DNA from: an uncultured Eubacteriales bacterium
GTDB lineage: Bacteria > Bacillota > Clostridia > Christensenellales > CAG-138
Direction of reading: 5' to 3'
DNA: 62,746 nt
NCBI GenBank assembly: GCA_902786465.1
Contig: CADACQ010000011.1
Span: 1 to 62,746 of the forward strand
Notes under the pieces: generated by a model
Told to the model about the DNA's origin: nothing
Seen by the model: only the letters and a program-made list of their open reading frames with translations
The model's database searches: none
In this document: piece by piece, positions 2,313 to 43,681 of the stretch
Position numbering within the stretch: position 1 is the first letter of the stretch
Layout: each line of letters begins with the position of its first letter
Position numbers and translations under genes: made by a program

Positions 2313-2493
2313 TCAAAATCTTTCGGTTTTTTCGGATTTTTTGGCCAGTCGCCCGGTTCGGCGACGGAAGACAGCATACCACGTTTTTTCCCCGGTTGCA
2401 AGGGCAGGATTCACGGTTTGTTCATGGAAAATACGCGTTTATCTGGCCTTTGCGGTGTATGCTCTTCCTATCAAATCCAAGGAGCGATGGGCT

Positions 2494-3216
2494 ATGAGCG
2501 AATCTAAAGCCATATTGGAATACAACGATAAGGGCGTGACCCTCTGGTCGCTGCGGTACCCCGGGGCCTTCGCCCGGGGAGAGACCGCTGCCGAGGCCGT
2601 CCGCAAGCTCCCCGCCGCCTGCCGCCGCTACCGGCTATGGGCCAAGCTCCCGATCGAGGCGGACGCCGCCGGGGACGAGCAGGTCCGCTGCACCCGGAAG
2701 ATCAAGGTGGACGCCCCCGTGGAGGAGGGCTTCACCGCGGCCCTGTTCCCGGAGGAGAAACTGGCCCTGGACATGGCCCGCTACACGTCCCTCAAGACCC
2801 TGTGCCTTATTTCCGCCCGGGATCTGGAGGCCCTCTTCGCCTCCATCCCCCAGAAGGACCGGGCGCTGCTGAAGTCCCGCAGGACCGTCTACGGCAAGGT
2901 GCCCGTTACCGCCCGGGAGATGCTTTCCCACGTGATCGAGGCGCAGCGGACCTGGTCGACCCTGTTCGGCGTGGACTTGGGCGAAAGCCAGGGGCTGCTG
3001 GCGGACCGGAAGCGGCTCTTCGGGGGGCTGGAGCGCCAGCCGGGGTATCTGGACGGCCGGCTCGTCACGGGGCCTGACGGGGAGCTGTGGACCCTCCGCA
3101 AGCTCCTGCGCCGCCTCCTCTGGCACGACGCCCTCCACGGCCGGGCCCTCTACCGCAAGGCCGTCACGTTCTGGCAGAAGGAACGGATCAAAAACCCCTT
3201 CGGCTTCACGAAATAA
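2494..3216 (+). CDS. DinB-like/four-helix-bundle protein of unknown function
   Basis: A 240-residue soluble protein. The ATG at 2494 was chosen because AAGGAG lies nine bases upstream. Residues 1-60 (MSESKAILEYNDKGVTLWSL...) resemble a small HicB-like beta-alpha domain. The second half has the pattern of a DinB/YfiT-type helical bundle: a first His in TAREMLSHVIEAQRTW and a late WHDALHGRALY segment carrying two more His, positions that bind metal in DinB-like proteins. The fold assignment is inferred from these motifs alone. It sits alone between the divergent rpmG operon and prsW. Substrate and role are unknown. Confidence 0.55.
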   Translation: MSESKAILEYNDKGVTLWSLRYPGAFARGETAAEAVRKLPAACRRYRLWAKLPIEADAAGDEQVRCTRKIKVDAPVEEGFTAALFPEEKLALDMARYTSLKTLCLISARDLEALFASIPQKDRALLKSRRTVYGKVPVTAREMLSHVIEAQRTWSTLFGVDLGESQGLLADRKRLFGGLERQPGYLDGRLVTGPDGELWTLRKLLRRLLWHDALHGRALYRKAVTFWQKERIKNPFGFTK

Positions 3217-3297: not shown

Positions 3298-4005
3298 ATG
3301 ATCATCCTGCTCGCCGCCGCCGTGCTGCCGGCCGCCTTTTTGCTGTATCGGGTCTATCAGATGGACACCATCGAGAAGGAGCCCTGGTCCATCCTGCGCA
3401 AGCTCCTGCTGTGGGGCGCCCTCAGCGGCATCCCCGCCGCCCTGGTGGAGAGCTTGCTCACGGGCGTAGTGCAGAACCTGCTCGAGGAGGGCACCCTGCT
3501 CTACAACTTCGTCTTCGGCTTCATCGTGGCGGCTTTGGTGGAGGAGAGCTTCAAGTTCTTCTTCCTCTATAAGTTCACCTTCAAGAGCCCCCATTTCAAC
3601 TACCGCTTCGACGGGGTGGTCTACGCCGTGTTCGTGTCCATGGGCTTCGCCATTTTGGAGAACATTCTCTATGTCTTCCAGGGGGGCCTGGGCGTGGCTA
3701 TTTCCCGGGCGCTGCTGGCCCTGCCGCTCCACGCCGCCTGCGGGGTGTACATGGGCATCGCCTACGGCCAGCAGAAGGTCAACAGCCTCTATAAGCCCGC
3801 CTCCTTCGGGAGCGTGGCCCGGGCCTGCCTGCCCGTGCCCATCCTGATCCATGGGTTCTACGACAGCTGCGCCTTCTCCGCGGAGAAGTATCCCATCTTC
3901 CTCCTGGTCTTCGTAGTGTTCGTGATCCTGGTGTTCATCCTCACCCTGCGGCAGCTCAAGAAGGCGTCCCAGACGGACGCTCCCGTCGGGGAGGTGACCC
4001 TCTGA
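3298..4005 (+). CDS. prsW: PrsW-family intramembrane glutamic protease
   Basis: A multi-pass membrane protein of 235 residues with the conserved PrsW motifs in order: VEESFK in a membrane helix (the EExxK catalytic motif), FDGVVYAVFVSMGFAILENILY, PLHAACGVYMG and HGFYDS. In Bacillus, PrsW makes the site-1 cut in the anti-sigma factor RsiW; the substrate here is unknown and no anti-sigma gene is visible in the window. The ATG at 3298 has GGAGGT five bases upstream. TACAAT at 3263-3268 may be a -10 box, but its -35 is poor. The TGA overlaps the next gene's ATG by one base. Confidence 0.88.
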   Translation: MIILLAAAVLPAAFLLYRVYQMDTIEKEPWSILRKLLLWGALSGIPAALVESLLTGVVQNLLEEGTLLYNFVFGFIVAALVEESFKFFFLYKFTFKSPHFNYRFDGVVYAVFVSMGFAILENILYVFQGGLGVAISRALLALPLHAACGVYMGIAYGQQKVNSLYKPASFGSVARACLPVPILIHGFYDSCAFSAEKYPIFLLVFVVFVILVFILTLRQLKKASQTDAPVGEVTL

Positions 4006-6377
4006 TGCGCGCGAACATCCCCCTCAACAACGACTGGCAGTTCGTCTTCACCTGCACCGACGAGTTCCTCCGGGGAGAGGTCCCCGGCGAACCGGTGCGT
4101 CTCCCCCACACCGTCAAGCTCCTGCCCTGGAAGTGCGCCCGGAAGGAGATGTACGAGACCGTCTGCGGCTATTCGAATACCATCTTCGCCGACCCCGCCT
4201 GGGCGGGCAAGGAGGTGCGCCTCGTGCTGGACGGGGCCTCCCAATACCCCGAGGTGTTCCTGAACGGCGAACCCGTGGCCCCCGAATGGGAGGCCCACTG
4301 CGGGTACACGGCCCAGAGCTTTCTGCTGGAAGGGCTCAAATACGGCGAGGAGAACCGGCTGTCCGTGCGGCTGGACACCCGGGAGACCCTGAACCAGCCC
4401 CCCTTCGGCTACATGATCGACTACCTGTGCTATGGCGGCCTCTACCGGGAGGCCCGGCTGGAGGTCGCGGAGCTCTGCCACATCGCGGACGTGTTCCCCG
4501 TGACCCACGGGGACGGCGCTTCCGAGGTCCGGGTCAAGCTGAACCGAGCCCCCGCGGCGGGGGACGTGCTGCGGCTCGCCCTGCCGGAGCTGGGCGTGGA
4601 CCTCGCCATGGACGCCCAAAGCGAAAACACATTTACCTTTACGGCCGAAAACCCGGTCCCCTGGGGCCTGGACGATCCCCGGTTGTACGATTTGACCGTC
4701 TCCCTGGTCCACGAGGGTCAGGAAGCGGATCGGCGGGCCCTGCGGGTGGGGTTCCGGGACGCGGAATTTAGGGCGGACGGCTTCTACCTGAACGGGCGGC
4801 TGGTCCATCTCCACGGTCTCGACCGGCATCAGAGCTGGCCCTACATCGGCTACGCCGCCCCCGCCGGCATGCAGCGGGACGAGGCCAACTACCTGAAGTT
4901 CGGCCTGGGGCTCAACATCGTCCGCACCAGTCACTACCCCCAAAGCCAGCATTTCATCGACCGCTGCGACGAGATCGGCCTCCTGGTATTCACGGAGATC
5001 CCCGGCTGGCAGCACATCGGCGACGAGGAATGGCAGCGGATCGCCCTGGAGCACGTGCGGCAGATGGTGCTCCAATACCGGCATCACCCCAGCATCGTCC
5101 TGTGGGGCGTGCGGATCAACGAGAGCCAGGACAACGACGAACTCTACACCAGGACCAACGCCCTTTGCCACAGTCTGGACCCCTCCCGGCAGACCGGCGG
5201 CGTCCGGTACCTGCAGCACAGCCACCTTTTGGAGGACGTGTATACCTACAACGACTTCTCCAAGGACGGCACGGGCTACGGGCTGCTGGAAAAAAAGGAT
5301 GTGACGGACACGCCGGACAAAGGTTACTTGGTGACCGAGTGCAACGGGCACATGTACCCCACCAAGAACTACGACGACGAGGTCCACCGGCTGACCCACG
5401 CCCTGCGCCACGCCCAGGCTCAGAGCGACGGAGCCGTCCGGGAGGGCGTGTCGGGCTGCATCGCCTGGTGCATGTCGGACTACAACACCCATACGGACTT
5501 CGGTTCCGGCGATTCCATCTGCTACCACGGCGTATCCGACGGGTTCCGCAACAACAAATGGGCGGGCTGGGTCTACGCGAGCCAGCAGGAAGCCGACCCG
5601 GTGCTGATCGTGGGCACGGACATGAACAAGGGCGAGCGGGCCGGCAGCGTCCTGCACGACGCCTACGTGTTCACCAACGCCGAGAAGGTGCGCCTTTCCA
5701 AGGGCGGCAAGTTCATCGCGGACTTCGCGCCGGACAGGGAGCACTTCCCGGGCCTCGCCCATCCGCCGGTGCACATCGACGACTTTGTGGGCGAGCTGCT
5801 CAAGAGCGAGGAGCATTTCTCCGACGAGATAGCGGACAAAGTGAAGAAGTGCCTGTTCGCCGCCCAGAAATACGGCATGGACAAGCTCCCCCTGCGCGTG
5901 AAGATGACGCTCCTAGACCTGAAGCTCCGGCACAAGTTCACCATGGAGCAGGGCGTGGAGCTGTACAACCGATATATCGGCGGCTGGGGCCAGCAGTCGG
6001 GCCTGTGGCGGTTCACCGCCATCCGCAACGGCGAGGCCGCGGAGTACGTGGAGAAGGGCGATTACAGCAAGCCCTGCCTGGTGGCCTGGGCGGAGCGAGC
6101 GCTCCTCACCGAGGGCGACGCCTACGACATGACCCTGGTGCATCTTGAGTGCCGGGACGAGCGAGGGAACCGGATCCCCACGGCCTTCGATCCCGTCCTG
6201 CTCACCACCGAGGGACCCATCCAGGTGGTGGGGCCCCGGGCCGTGGCCCTGGAGGGCGGCGCTTTCGGCACTTTCGTGCGCACCGTGGGCGAGACCGGCA
6301 CGGGGGTGCTGACCCTCTCCTCCCCCACGCTGGGCAGCTGTAAGCTGACCTTCACCGTCATCCCGGAGGTAAAATAA
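4005..6377 (+). CDS. Glycoside hydrolase family 2 protein (beta-galactosidase/beta-glucuronidase type)
   Basis: A 790-residue cytoplasmic glycosidase with no signal peptide. Domain order is as in GH2: an N-terminal sugar-binding jelly roll (NDWQFVF... LPHTVKLLPW), an immunoglobulin-like domain, then the TIM barrel from about residue 255 (NGRLVHLHGLDRHQSWP). The likely acid/base is E373 in LWGVRINES and the likely nucleophile E445 in LVTECNGHMYP. A C-terminal beta domain resembles those of GH2 beta-galactosidases. The substrate cannot be read from sequence. It starts inside the prsW stop (TGATG), so translation is probably coupled, although a functional link with a protease is not obvious. Confidence 0.87.
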   Translation: MRANIPLNNDWQFVFTCTDEFLRGEVPGEPVRLPHTVKLLPWKCARKEMYETVCGYSNTIFADPAWAGKEVRLVLDGASQYPEVFLNGEPVAPEWEAHCGYTAQSFLLEGLKYGEENRLSVRLDTRETLNQPPFGYMIDYLCYGGLYREARLEVAELCHIADVFPVTHGDGASEVRVKLNRAPAAGDVLRLALPELGVDLAMDAQSENTFTFTAENPVPWGLDDPRLYDLTVSLVHEGQEADRRALRVGFRDAEFRADGFYLNGRLVHLHGLDRHQSWPYIGYAAPAGMQRDEANYLKFGLGLNIVRTSHYPQSQHFIDRCDEIGLLVFTEIPGWQHIGDEEWQRIALEHVRQMVLQYRHHPSIVLWGVRINESQDNDELYTRTNALCHSLDPSRQTGGVRYLQHSHLLEDVYTYNDFSKDGTGYGLLEKKDVTDTPDKGYLVTECNGHMYPTKNYDDEVHRLTHALRHAQAQSDGAVREGVSGCIAWCMSDYNTHTDFGSGDSICYHGVSDGFRNNKWAGWVYASQQEADPVLIVGTDMNKGERAGSVLHDAYVFTNAEKVRLSKGGKFIADFAPDREHFPGLAHPPVHIDDFVGELLKSEEHFSDEIADKVKKCLFAAQKYGMDKLPLRVKMTLLDLKLRHKFTMEQGVELYNRYIGGWGQQSGLWRFTAIRNGEAAEYVEKGDYSKPCLVAWAERALLTEGDAYDMTLVHLECRDERGNRIPTAFDPVLLTTEGPIQVVGPRAVALEGGAFGTFVRTVGETGTGVLTLSSPTLGSCKLTFTVIPEVK

Positions 6378-39538: not shown

Positions 39539-40708
39539 TTACTTAAGAATATCCTTCAGGAAGGAAGTGCCCGCATGCCAGGGGGCGCCGGTCAGGTAGT
39601 CGTAGATGGTGGCGGCGATGTCCGCAAAGCTCTTGCGGACGCCCAGGTCCACGCCGCCCTTCACAGGCTTGCCCCAGACCAGCAGGGGGATGTGCTCCCG
39701 GGTGTGGTCCGTGCCGTGATGGGCCGGATCGCAGCCGTGGTCGGCAGTGATCATGAGGATGTCCTCGTCCTTCATACGACCCATGATATCCGGGAGCTGC
39801 TCGTCGAAGCGCTCGAGAGCCCTGGCGTAGCCCTCCACGTCCCGGCGGTGGCCGTAGAGCATGTCGAAGTCCACCAGGTTGGTGAAGATGAAGCTGCCCG
39901 TGCCCTCGGCGATAAAGCGCTCCGTGGCCGCCACGCCGGTCTCATTGTTCTTGGTGTGGTCCACCACGTCGATGCCCCGGTGGCAGAAGATGTCCTCGAT
40001 CTTGCCGATGGCCACCACAGGGAGGCCCTTTGCGTGGAGCCCGTCCAGGATGGTGTCCTCGAAGGGCGGGATGGCGTAGTCCTTCCGGTTCTCCGTGCGG
40101 ACGTACTTGCCGTCCTTCTTCGTGAAGGGGCGGGCGATGACCCGGCCGACGAGATACTCGCCCTGGAGCATCTCCCGGGCGATCTCGCAGATGCGGTAGA
40201 GCTCCTCCAGGGGGATGATCTCTTCACAGGCCGCCACCTGGAACACGCTGTCCGCGGAGGTGTAGACGATGGGCTTGCCGGTCTTCACGTGCTCGTCGCC
40301 CAAACGCTCGATGATCTCGGTGCCGCTGGCCACCTCGTTGCCCAGGGTGCCCCGGCCGATCTTCGCTTCGAATTCGTCCATGAGAGCCTGGGGGAAGCCG
40401 TTGGGGAAGGTCTTGAAAGCGGTCTTCTGGATGAGGCCCGCCATCTCCCAGTGGCCGCAGGTGGTGTCCTTGGCGTGGGTCACCTCCATGCACTTGCCGT
40501 AGGCGCCCTCCACGGGGCCCTCCCACTTGGGCAGGGGGCTGCCCTCGATGTGGCCGATGCCCAGGCGGCGCATGTTGGGGATATGCAGGGGGTGGCGCTC
40601 TTGGATGTGCCCCAGGGTGTTGGCCCCCACGTCGTCGAATTCCGCCGCATCGGGCAGGGCGCCGATGCCTACGCTGTCCAGAACGATCAAAATAGCTCTC
40701 TTGCTCAT
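39539..40708 (-). CDS. deoB: Phosphopentomutase
   Basis: Interconverts (deoxy)ribose 1- and 5-phosphates in nucleoside salvage. It has 389 residues of the alkaline phosphatase-like fold. N-terminal metal/nucleophile segment ILIVLDSVGIGALPDAAEFDDVGANTLGHI; DTTCGHWEMAGL; C-terminal metal ligands in ILMITADHGCDPAHHGTDHTREHIPLLVWG. It has its own promoter inside the end of the upstream gene and GGAG before the ATG. Confidence 0.96.
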   Translation of the reverse strand: MSKRAILIVLDSVGIGALPDAAEFDDVGANTLGHIQERHPLHIPNMRRLGIGHIEGSPLPKWEGPVEGAYGKCMEVTHAKDTTCGHWEMAGLIQKTAFKTFPNGFPQALMDEFEAKIGRGTLGNEVASGTEIIERLGDEHVKTGKPIVYTSADSVFQVAACEEIIPLEELYRICEIAREMLQGEYLVGRVIARPFTKKDGKYVRTENRKDYAIPPFEDTILDGLHAKGLPVVAIGKIEDIFCHRGIDVVDHTKNNETGVAATERFIAEGTGSFIFTNLVDFDMLYGHRRDVEGYARALERFDEQLPDIMGRMKDEDILMITADHGCDPAHHGTDHTREHIPLLVWGKPVKGGVDLGVRKSFADIAATIYDYLTGAPWHAGTSFLKDILK

Positions 40709-40737: not shown

Positions 40738-41526
40738 TCAGTATATCAAATCCTGGGCCGATTGACAACCGTTTGGGGCCATATCCCGTTCATTGATCCG
40801 GCGCAGCTCCCGCAAAAAGGCGTCCCGGCCCCGATCGTAGGGCAGCAGGAGCTTCACGTGCTCGTAGACGGCGAAGAGGAACTCCCCGTTGGTGGGCATG
40901 CCCTGCTTGTCCTGGGCGCTGTAGCCGAAGTATTGGCGCTGGACGGCCTTCCCCGCCAGCCGCCAGCAGCTCTCCACCCCGTGGCGCATGGCCCGGTCCA
41001 CCATGACCGGGGAGGAGTTGTGGCGCTGGGACAGGGCGGGATAGAGCTGCTGCATGAGCTTGATCCGGGAGGGGTACGGCATCTCGGACAGCAGGCCAAC
41101 CCCGTCGGAGAAGTAGCGGAAGGCCAGCAGGTGACGGGGCACGCTCAGTGCGTCCAACGAGCACTGGGCCTGGAGGGTGAACCAGCCCTGGCGGCCGCCC
41201 TCGTCGTCCGTTTCCCCCAGGAGCAGGGCGATCCGCCGCAGCACCAGCTCCAGCACCAGGGGCTTATAGAACACGAAGGCGGCGTCCAGGCCCTCGGCCC
41301 GAGCGCTGTCCCGCTCCGCCAACAAAAACAGGGGTACGCTTGCTGACAGGCATCGGCTCGTCAGCGCCTCCGCCGGGCGGGGCAGCAGCTCCTCCTCCGC
41401 TAAAAGAAAGCAGGTGTCCTGGTCCAGCCGGTCCGTCACGGCCATGCCCCGGCCGGTGAGGTAGGCCGCCGCCCGGGCCCTCTCCTGGGGCCGGAGCAGG
41501 AGGCAGGCGTTCTTCCTTTCGCTCAT
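40738..41526 (-). CDS. Divergent Spo0A paralogue with a pseudo-receiver domain
   Basis: A 262-residue protein translated from an ATG overlapping the spo0A stop (ATGA). Residues about 115-230 align with the Spo0A effector domain: LSVPRHLLAFRYFSDGV, IKLMQQLYPALSQRHNSSPVMVDRAMRHGVESCW, QYFGYS, PTNGEFLFAVYEHVKLLL. Residues 1-105 look like a decayed receiver: the region equivalent to the phosphorylated Asp is LLAEEEL and no acidic pair is seen at the N-terminus, though K88 (FYKPL) is kept. So it is probably not phosphorylated. It may be a co-regulator or antagonist of Spo0A; this is inference. Confidence 0.8.
   Translation of the reverse strand: MSERKNACLLLRPQERARAAAYLTGRGMAVTDRLDQDTCFLLAEEELLPRPAEALTSRCLSASVPLFLLAERDSARAEGLDAAFVFYKPLVLELVLRRIALLLGETDDEGGRQGWFTLQAQCSLDALSVPRHLLAFRYFSDGVGLLSEMPYPSRIKLMQQLYPALSQRHNSSPVMVDRAMRHGVESCWRLAGKAVQRQYFGYSAQDKQGMPTNGEFLFAVYEHVKLLLPYDRGRDAFLRELRRINERDMAPNGCQSAQDLIY
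40740..40768 (-). promoter_or_regulatory. Sigma-A promoter of deoB
   Basis: TTGTCA (40763-40768), 17 bases, TATACT (40740-40745) on the minus strand, inside the 3' end of the Spo0A-like gene. Confidence 0.75.
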
Positions 41527-42314
41527 GCTCTCAGCGCCTCCTCCCGCAGGGAAAGGCCCTCGCCCCAGGGGCTGTCCATGCGCATGCGGACCCGGTCCGC
41601 CACCATGTAGATGAAGGCGGAGTTGGAGGGCGTGTCCCGGTGGGCCTCCACCGTGTAGCCGAAGAAGGTCTGGATGGTGTTGATGTCCGCCCGCATCCAG
41701 GCGCACTCAATGGCGTGGCGCATGGCGTGCTCGGCCATGGACACGGAGGTGCCGCAGAGCCGGGCGGTGGCGGGATAGATGTCCTTCATGACGGAGAGCC
41801 GGGCCGGGTGGTCGGCGCAGTTCACCAGCTTGATGGCCTCCCGCAGCAGGTGATACCCCTGCAGATGGGGCGGCACCCCCAGGGAGAAGAGGGTGCGGGT
41901 CACCAGGTATTCCACATATCCGTAATCGGGCCGGACCACAGGCGCTTCGCCCCGGGTCAGGGCATAGAGCTGGGCGGCTGCCTTCTTGGGGTCCAGAGGC
42001 TTCAAAAAGCAGTAATCGATCTCATCCCCCATCCGTTCCAGCACGGACGAGGTGCCCGCCCCAGCCATGACGAACAGCTGGGGCCGACGCAGTATGGGCA
42101 GGGACGAAACGGCTTCCACGATCTCCAGGCCGTCGATGCCCGGCAATTCCAGGTCGATGAGCAGCACGTCCGTGCGCTCCTCCATATACCGTTCCAAAAG
42201 CTCTCTGCCGTCCCGCAAAATCGGCAAAACACGAAACTGCTTGTTGCGGATCAGCATGGTTTGCAGGCCTTCCGCCGCCTCCATGTCCGCGCTGACGATA
42301 CGAAGTGTCTTCAT
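41523..42314 (-). CDS. spo0A: Sporulation master regulator Spo0A
   Basis: A response regulator of 263 residues directly downstream of spoIVB, the orthologous location. Receiver: D10, phospho-acceptor D54 in DVLLIDLELPGIDGLEIV, K105 in CFLKPLD; the conserved Thr is replaced by Ala in VMAGAG. Effector domain: LFSLGVPPHLQGYHLLREAIKLV, MKDIYPATARL, AMRHAIECAWMRADINTIQTFFGYTVEAHRDTPSNSAFIYMVADRVRM. The recognition helix, SRVERAIRH in Bacillus, reads SMAEHAMRH, so two base-contacting Arg are changed. GGGAGG precedes the ATG. Confidence 0.92.
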   Translation of the reverse strand: MKTLRIVSADMEAAEGLQTMLIRNKQFRVLPILRDGRELLERYMEERTDVLLIDLELPGIDGLEIVEAVSSLPILRRPQLFVMAGAGTSSVLERMGDEIDYCFLKPLDPKKAAAQLYALTRGEAPVVRPDYGYVEYLVTRTLFSLGVPPHLQGYHLLREAIKLVNCADHPARLSVMKDIYPATARLCGTSVSMAEHAMRHAIECAWMRADINTIQTFFGYTVEAHRDTPSNSAFIYMVADRVRMRMDSPWGEGLSLREEALRA

Positions 42315-42385
42315 ATGCCCTCCCGATGTAGAAATGAATAGATATGAATAAATATGAAACCGGATTATTCCCCGGTTCGATTAGA

Positions 42386-42414
42386 ATAATACACGTATTT
42401 TCTCTGTATTTCAA
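42386..42414 (-). promoter_or_regulatory. Sigma-A promoter of the spo0A pair
   Basis: TTGAAA (42409-42414), 17 bases, TATTAT (42386-42391) on the minus strand. An AACCGG/CCGGTT inverted repeat lies in the ~65-base leader. I saw no convincing sigma-H site or 0A box in this gap (42315-42502). Confidence 0.7.
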
Positions 42415-42502
42415 GACGCGGACTGTCAAAAATCGCGCAAAATGTATGAATAATTTATGAATATTACGAAATTCTGCAATTTTGCATATATTTCGCTTTT
42501 TT

Positions 42503-43681
42503 CTAAAACAGCTTTTCCAGCATCCACTGGGCATAGACGCAGTAGCCCCTTTTGGGCTCGTTGACGAACACGTGGGTCACCACGCCTACCAGGCGGCCGT
42601 TTTGGACCACGGGGCTGCCGCTCATGCCCGGCACGATGCCGCCGGTGAGGGCAAGCAGGTCCGGGTCCGTGACCTCGATCATCATGCCCTGGACCCCCGG
42701 GGCGCTCTGGACCTTCAATCGGATGATCCGGCAATCGTACCCCTGCCAGGCCCCGTCCGCCGCAGAGTAGAGGGTGGCGTCCCCCGTCTGGACCTGAGCC
42801 GCCGCGGCCAAGGGCACCTCCGTCCCCCAAAGGCTCCCGCCGCCCAGGTAGGGCCCGGCCACGCCGTAGTCCCCGTTGACATCCACGGTCCCCACAGCGT
42901 CGCTCTCCCGGGTGGAGAACTCCCCCGCCAGCTCCCCCACCCGACCCGCCTCCGCCTTCAGGGCGGCGGTGACGGCGGCAGGGGTGATATAGCCCCGCTC
43001 CGTCAGCAGGGTGAGACCCGTGTCCACGTCCGCCACCCCGTGGCCCAGGGCGCAAAACCTGTCCCCCTTCAGAAAGGACAGGGTACCGATGCCCGAGGTG
43101 CTCTCCCGGACCCAGGCCCCCAACTTCCGCGCGCCCGTGTCCCGCTCCAGGGCCGTATGCAGGGACAGGGTCAGCCGTTCCCCGCCCCGCTGGACGGTCA
43201 GCTCCGCCTGGGCCCGATCCTGCAGAAGCTTTGATAGCCCCGCCGCCCCCGATACCGGCTGGCCGTCCACGGCCAAGATGGCATCCCCCTTTTTGAGCCC
43301 CGCGGCAGAAGCGGGCGACAGGGCCCCCTCCGCCGTCTCCACCGCGGTGAGGCCCACCACCTGGACCCCCTTTGTGTACAGGATCACGCCCACAGCCTGT
43401 CCTCCCAGCCGCACGGTGGGAAGGCTTGGGGCCGTTTGGACCGTCCTCAGGGGCACCAGTCCCAGGAGGGCGTAGGTCCGCTCCCCGCCCGGCAATCGCT
43501 CGTCCCCGCTGGAGCGGACGGGGCGGGCCTCGATCAAAGGACCTGCTGCCGCCGCCGTCCCCGGCTCCACCGCCTGGGGAATGGCCCGCAGGGCTACCAT
43601 CCCCGGAGAGAAATACCAGAAAAACAGCAGGGCGCTGAGCCCCGCTGCCATGGTCTTCTTCACGCGCTGCTTCATGGCCAT
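42503..43681 (-). CDS. spoIVB: SpoIVB peptidase (family S55)
   Basis: Forespore-secreted serine peptidase that signals activation of pro-sigma-K in Bacillus. It has 392 residues: an N-terminal membrane anchor (ALLFFWYFSPGMVAL), a PDZ domain (ASAAGLKKGDAILAVDGQPV), then the catalytic domain with His in DRFCALGHGVADVD and Ser in GGIVPGMSGSPVVQNGRLVGVVTHV. The ending EPKRGYCVYAQWML is family-typical. The order spoIVB-spo0A matches Bacillus. The ATG at 43681 lacks a strong ribosome binding site; ATG 43675 is an alternative. Confidence 0.93.
   Translation of the reverse strand: MAMKQRVKKTMAAGLSALLFFWYFSPGMVALRAIPQAVEPGTAAAAGPLIEARPVRSSGDERLPGGERTYALLGLVPLRTVQTAPSLPTVRLGGQAVGVILYTKGVQVVGLTAVETAEGALSPASAAGLKKGDAILAVDGQPVSGAAGLSKLLQDRAQAELTVQRGGERLTLSLHTALERDTGARKLGAWVRESTSGIGTLSFLKGDRFCALGHGVADVDTGLTLLTERGYITPAAVTAALKAEAGRVGELAGEFSTRESDAVGTVDVNGDYGVAGPYLGGGSLWGTEVPLAAAAQVQTGDATLYSAADGAWQGYDCRIIRLKVQSAPGVQGMMIEVTDPDLLALTGGIVPGMSGSPVVQNGRLVGVVTHVFVNEPKRGYCVYAQWMLEKLF

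Follow-up and report, generated by a model that had tools for sequence, protein, structure and literature searches.

Spo0A triggers spore formation as the master regulator of sporulation, for which it serves as a marker gene, and its domains bind DNA in head-to-tail order at a spacing of about 10 bp. Clostridium thermocellum has two Spo0As in its genome (PMC3804516, PMC4890492), the second of which (Cthe_3087 / Clo1313_0637) is a distant copy beside another; the accessible portions of these papers present it as a single extra gene and mention neither a tandem arrangement nor a partner with a pseudo-receiver nor a DNA site. Among atypical response regulators, the available excerpts on the orphan proteins BldM and WhiI of Streptomyces report a functional heterodimer in development. 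Those on CmrR and CmrT of Clostridioides difficile report co-encoded regulators with OmpR-family effectors, one of them a likely pseudo-receiver, for which the authors judged gene duplication unlikely, and place binding by CmrR in front of the operon that encodes it. Lastly, truncated Spo0A versions with Spo0A_C and no receiver are found on phages, as far as the available text goes (PMC10294663).

The window, i.e. the whole stretch of 62,746 nucleotides analysed here, derives from an uncultured gut bacterium and carries two adjacent minus-strand genes, XA (41523-42314, 263 aa) and XB (40738-41526, 262 aa). Upstream of XA lies spoIVB (42503-43681, minus strand; Peptidase_S55, 208.7 bits), so that XA occupies the orthologous place of spo0A, as the earlier note on this DNA had stated. 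Downstream lies a minus-strand open reading frame (39539-40708) that adjoins the pair in the genus loci and is presumably deoB-like. The stop/start overlap ATGA (41523-41526, minus strand) was confirmed, and comparison within the genus yielded ATGA in eight of nine genomes and GTGA in the remaining one, the overlap thus being present in all nine. XA and XB are 27% identical over 163 residues. In Pfam profile searches, XA matched Spo0A_C with 100 bits and Response_reg with 40.7 bits, and XB (searched as 40738-41523) matched Spo0A_C with 68 bits and had no Response_reg match. With a Spo0A_C (PF08769) cut-off of 25 bits, both proteins belong to this superfamily, and the effector domain previously read in the second gene is genuine. 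Against the Spo0A equivalog TIGR02875, both fell below the cut-off of 200 bits (XA, 149.9; XB, 57.9).

The pair resembles Spo0A in the arrangement of its domains, in the Spo0A_C fold and in its location behind spoIVB, and differs from it in the equivalog scores, the altered recognition helices, the atypical receivers and the presence of an ordinary Spo0A elsewhere. It shares with BldM-WhiI the character of two atypical orphan response regulators and with CmrR-CmrT that of co-encoded regulators with a pseudo-receiver partner, and binding by CmrR upstream of its own operon parallels the autoregulation proposed below; unlike either system, XA and XB derive from Spo0A, and a heterodimer, which the excerpts give as demonstrated for BldM-WhiI, is only proposed for them. 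Whereas the phage-borne versions lack the receiver, XB has a receiver-like domain and a chromosomal place that is conserved in the genus. The earlier note knew of no described two-Spo0A system of this kind, and no published report of such a pair was recognised in searches of the open-licence PMC literature.

The window's own genome (70.8% complete) contains three Spo0A_C matches, the best of which lies on another contig, C45 (G000:C45:6687-7466, or L046:6687-7466). It encodes a 259-aa protein with the receiver residues DD/D/S/K and the helix SKVERAIRH, which scored 269.2 bits against TIGR02875 (cut-off 200) and 82.4 bits against Response_reg. This gene, rather than 41523-42314 as the earlier note had assumed, is the ordinary Spo0A of the genome. 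Since eight near-identical genus copies appear in the full-length tree described below, and a match of comparable strength was found in 11 of the 12 genus genomes (some cut by contig ends), C45 is not a stray contig. The genome thus has three Spo0A-type genes, and XA and XB are diverged paralogues. Of the earlier reading, the two-gene partnership with changed DNA recognition is sustained by joint retention, by the conserved overlap, by the invariance of each helix and by the element retained upstream; the picture of a Spo0A with a helper is not, because a separate ordinary Spo0A exists, both members have diverged and both receivers are atypical. The best explanation is that the working Spo0A is no longer found at its classical position behind spoIVB and that the copy with intact receiver residues sits elsewhere. 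As the gene at the classical place was often not an ordinary Spo0A in the relatives examined, annotation by position or domain can misname it.

Neither receiver has the full set of residues of a typical response regulator (acidic pair, Asp, T/S and Lys). In XA, S8-A9 align at the position of the acidic pair, which is thus absent by alignment, followed by an invariant D10 that a one-residue alignment shift might bring into the pair. D54 and K105 are invariant in the nine genus sequences, the T/S position is T in four and A in five, and the Asp region, as judged by eye, is not conserved in a second genus, g2. Because D54 and K105 are kept, XA may still be phosphorylated. In XB, the acidic-pair position has no acidic residue in any of the nine genus proteins, in keeping with the loss noticed earlier. 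The loss of the phosphorylatable Asp applies to the window, which has Glu, and not to the genus as a whole: this column reads E in five proteins, D in two (L035 and L041), T in one and A in one, and so is variable, with no uniform loss of the Asp. Lys is retained in all nine, as the sole phosphorylation-site residue kept throughout. A model of XB built with nine sequences (pLDDT 75) contained beta-alpha elements in receiver order, followed by the Spo0A_C domain; Foldseek matched the C-terminal part to 1fc3/1lq1 (TM by target 0.80-0.86) and also gave weaker hits to receivers such as 2pkx (0.63). With a predicted receiver-like fold, no acidic pair in any of the nine proteins and Glu at the Asp column in the window, XB is classed as a pseudo-receiver protein. 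The XA model had a pLDDT of 63 overall, with a weak C-terminal half, and was set aside. Invariant columns in XB numbered 81 of 110 in the C-terminal and 34 of 118 in the N-terminal part, the corresponding counts for XA being 97 of 116 and 65 of 130.

The recognition helices SMAEHAMRH of XA (41715-41741, minus strand) and VMVDRAMRH of XB (40981-41007, minus strand) are each invariant in the nine genus genomes, and neither matches the Spo0A pattern S-[KR]-VERAIRH. Residues are numbered as in Bacillus subtilis, with E213 fixed from the alignment with 1lq1 under an assumed construct start. Over three genera, XA has E213 in 17/17, H214 in 16/17 and R217 in 17/17 sequences, and XB has M211 in 17/17 and R214 in 16/17, with E213 lost in 14/17. 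The changes are complementary, in that XA retains E213 and loses R214, and XB mostly does the opposite. The two proteins thus differ, as had been claimed for the base-contacting arginines, at the position of Arg214 (His in XA, Arg in XB), but not at that of Arg211, which is Met in both.

Upstream of XA, a candidate promoter, TTGAAA-17-TATTAT (42386-42414, minus strand), has 10/12 consensus matches; the scan returned two such sites in the window against 0.7 expected, and the genus alignment shows variation within it. Thirty bp before this promoter lies a direct-repeat element, ATTCATAAATTATTCATA (42445-42462, minus strand), which we describe as new here and which was singled out as candidate operator by upstream conservation, a matrix test and a genus scan. 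Its consensus is ATTCAY-3-TTATTCAT, and it is the most conserved 18-mer upstream of XA: the best-conserved 18-mers of the 240-bp upstream alignment of nine genomes fall in it (0.907, mean 0.746). A second repeat, of TATTCAT with 10-bp spacing (42334-42350, minus strand), is located between promoter and XA start and is poorly conserved in the genus. The same interval holds a stem-loop followed by T's (42357-42378), of which one was found and 1.6 were obtained in shuffles.

On the opposite strand the half-site reads GTATGAAT; it has GAA in common with the 0A box TGTCGAA and departs from this box at positions 2 and 4. The available part of a study of Spo0A gives positions 2, 4 and 5 of TGTCGAA as contacted (PMC3485338). 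In the half-site GTATGAA, two of these contacted positions (2 and 4) are altered, in agreement with the altered recognition helices. Autoregulation of XA through an ordinary 0A box was rejected, since a TGNCGAA-type box occurs within 240 bp upstream of XA in only one of nine genomes (G008, TTCGGCA at -197) and the window has none there. TGTCGAA occurs 11 times in the window, a count reached in one of 100 shuffles, but is absent from the XA upstream region.

A matrix of the element, derived from seven of the nine genus sequences after omission of two near-duplicates, was applied to 134 segments lying upstream of frames of 150 aa or more, taken from ten loci of g2 and a third genus, g18. Its four top ranks were all taken by pair genes, namely XA of G028 (17.4), XB of G173 (14.0), XA of G173 (13.3) and XA of G176 (10.7), the next score being 7.2; six of the ten pair-gene upstream regions in these other genera were not at the top (-1.5 to 6.1), and L155, among the top four, is not a clean TTCAY repeat. 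In G173, XA and XB are unlinked and share a 55-bp upstream stretch at -103/-104 (score 23, shuffle maximum 17, 0/500), a likeness that could be a leftover of promoter duplication. Among 11 upstream pairs aligned, only that of G173 reached 0/500; L157/L158 gave 3/500, L042/L158 gave 5/500 and the remaining eight ranged from 22 to 197 of 500, with G172's own pair at 78.

Scanning the 12 genus genomes for ATTCAYNNNTTATTCATR, with one mismatch allowed, returned 19 matches, and the reversed pattern returned none. Eight matches lie before XA, five before orthologues of the gene at 2494-3216, five in a lipoprotein-like gene and one elsewhere; the five inside the lipoprotein-like gene, ATTCAC[CT]TCATATTCATA, were discarded as coincidence. 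Within one mismatch, the element precedes XA in seven of the nine pair-holding genomes of the genus, G008 and G009 being missed. In the window, a further copy, ATTCACGGTTTGTTCATG (2409-2426, plus strand; one mismatch to the pattern), precedes a candidate target gene (2494-3216, plus strand) for a 240-aa protein with no Pfam match up to E 0.1, after which comes a PrsW-type protease gene (3298-4005; PrsW-protease, 119 bits). The 240-aa gene was found in five of the 12 genus genomes, and the element precedes it in all five. No TTCAY repeat was found before spoIIE in 12 of 12 loci, in about four of which the frame picked was not spoIIE, nor upstream of canonical spo0A in four genus genomes.

Spo0A had been taken to be normally a single gene. 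This does not hold for the order, where Spo0A_C matches occur in 55 of 61 genomes (the window's own and 60 relatives) and number two to five in 46 of them, counts that include short effector-only frames; the two Spo0As of C. thermocellum likewise speak against it. Elsewhere in the class, 93 genomes divide into 54 with a single match, 26 with two to four and 13 without any, and spoIVB lies just upstream, within a short flank, in 19 of 30 fetched class loci. The pair itself was surveyed in 20 genomes, 12 of the window's genus, one of g18 and seven of g2, the latter all at least 90% complete. Both genes are present in 17, and G002, G007 and G010 (70-76% complete) have neither, such that every genome with either gene has both (17/17). 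Some of these 17 carry further short or weak Spo0A_C matches that were left unplaced. In g18, 8 bp separate XA from XB, and no spoIVB turned up in the sequence stretch examined. In g2, the genes are in tandem in four genomes, and XA and XB lie on separate contigs in G172 and G173, which indicates that translational coupling is not essential. G175 carries both domains in one 400-aa frame (L152, 3742-4944), a fusion that hangs on a six-G run before the kept ATG and was given little weight owing to a possible indel or assembly error. Because the XB-type part lacks a receiver in five of seven g2 genomes (the four tandem ones and G175), receiver-receiver pairing cannot be general. Eight named records contain XB, six being RUG-numbered MAGs of rumen origin, one coming from sheep jejunum and one from goat reticulum.

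A full-length tree of 107 rows was computed from 95 of the 145 order matches and 12 of the 30 class rows, after exclusion of duplicate loci, seven short or partial rows, the reference row, 18 class rows and unfetched matches. The 47 copies located elsewhere formed one group, whose inner 46 had an SH-aLRT of 98, and a second group of 47 rows (89) included 41 spoIVB-place or pair genes; the spoIVB-place copy of G037 fell outside both groups, and four class rows fell on the wrong side of the root. The nine XA of the genus formed one clade, which was joined by the first gene of G028 and that of G012 (86). The nine XB also formed one clade, which was not sister to XA but arose from an unresolved fork, together with numerous long branches. 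A second tree, of 55 C-terminal domains, took 16 of 24 other spoIVB-place rows with the longest branches mostly omitted, and recovered 17 XA rows (bootstrap/SH-aLRT 99/95) and 17 XB rows (91/90) as two sister clades (92/91). As each clade comprises nine rows of the window's genus, seven of g2 and one of g18, the XA/XB duplication looks older than these three genera. The trees support an old split in the order, with an ordinary Spo0A elsewhere on one side and, on the other, a diverged copy at the spoIVB place, which would have become XA and XB before the three genera separated; a single origin of XA and XB is supported by the C-terminal tree and is left open by the full-length one.

Overall, the best explanation, which we hold with even confidence, is that of a co-retained diverged pair that acts jointly on its own direct-repeat site and regulates itself. 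Following an old duplication, the ordinary Spo0A would have been kept elsewhere, and the spoIVB-place copy would have diverged into XA and XB, which were kept together. Translational coupling may supply both proteins in matched amounts, and they would function jointly and independently of the classic phosphorylation switch, an XA-XB heterodimer being the simplest form. The DNA site of the pair would be a direct repeat upstream of its own promoter, with two TTCAY half-sites at a distance of 11 bp, so that the pair would regulate itself, and the same repeat may serve before one or a few other genes. XA and XB are retained together, under constraint and with a recurrent upstream element; they are most likely co-expressed partners, probably autoregulated, and the heterodimer is put forward as a proposal. 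A more specific version, of an obligate and largely phosphorylation-free two-protein regulator whose complementary helices read the two half-sites and which governs a small regulon beside ordinary Spo0A, is tentative and less likely than not. If the pair does work as proposed, it illustrates how a master regulator may give rise to two dedicated partners that recognise a new DNA site, and the element offers a defined test case for changes in recognition.

The several helix positions at which XA and XB differ, their separation in G172 and G173 and the homodimers reported in the available text for CmrR and for CmrT would also suit neofunctionalised homodimers with targets of their own, which share an operon only for timing. 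We consider this unlikely in view of the joint retention in 17/17 genomes and of an upstream element that is common to both genes even when they are unlinked (G173). Somewhat less probable still is a role for XB as inhibitor, i.e. as a phosphorylation-blind subunit that poisons XA or ordinary Spo0A: the missing acidic pair (9/9) and the receiverless XB-type part in five g2 genomes are what it would predict, but a pure titrator would not need the DNA-binding part to be the most constrained (81/110 against 34/118) or its helix to be invariant. It is improbable, too, that XA remains a phosphorylated, kinase-switched regulator which XB only tunes, since its invariant D54 and K105, and the D10 that a shifted alignment would place in the acidic pair, are offset by S8-A9 at this position as aligned, by the variable T/S position and by the unconserved Asp region in g2. 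Finally, although truncated effector genes of Spo0A are reported on phages (PMC10294663, in the part available), we give very little credence to decaying or phage-derived copies without function. Decay of XB was rejected on dN/dS and the absence of stops: the median values (Nei-Gojobori, 36 pairs) of 0.21 for XA, 0.375 for XB and 0.25 for the C-terminal part of XB are well below 1 and indicate purifying selection, and no stop codon was present in 11 XA/XB pairs checked. Neither of the outcomes that the earlier note had named as refuting was found, as the second protein matches Spo0A_C and relatives carry the pair free of stop codons. A phage origin was rejected because none of the 71 pattern matches in viral contigs could be confirmed as a relative, and gene place and order are conserved in the genus.

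Other arrangements of Spo0A-type genes were recorded among the relatives. In genus g11 (G021 with locus L061, G184 and G185; 92-94% complete), the best Spo0A_C match reached only about 1e-32, and ordinary Spo0A seems to have been lost, leaving a copy of the spoIVB-place type. A separate tandem Spo0A pair follows spoIVB in another order of the class (L160 of G102, 3668-4453 and 4583-5371); both copies have a receiver and a shortened Spo0A_C, and apparently arose by recent duplication. Many relatives (e.g. G018:C3, G024:C32 and G184:C5) also carry frames of approximately 115-150 aa with Spo0A_C only, similar to the published truncated phage versions.
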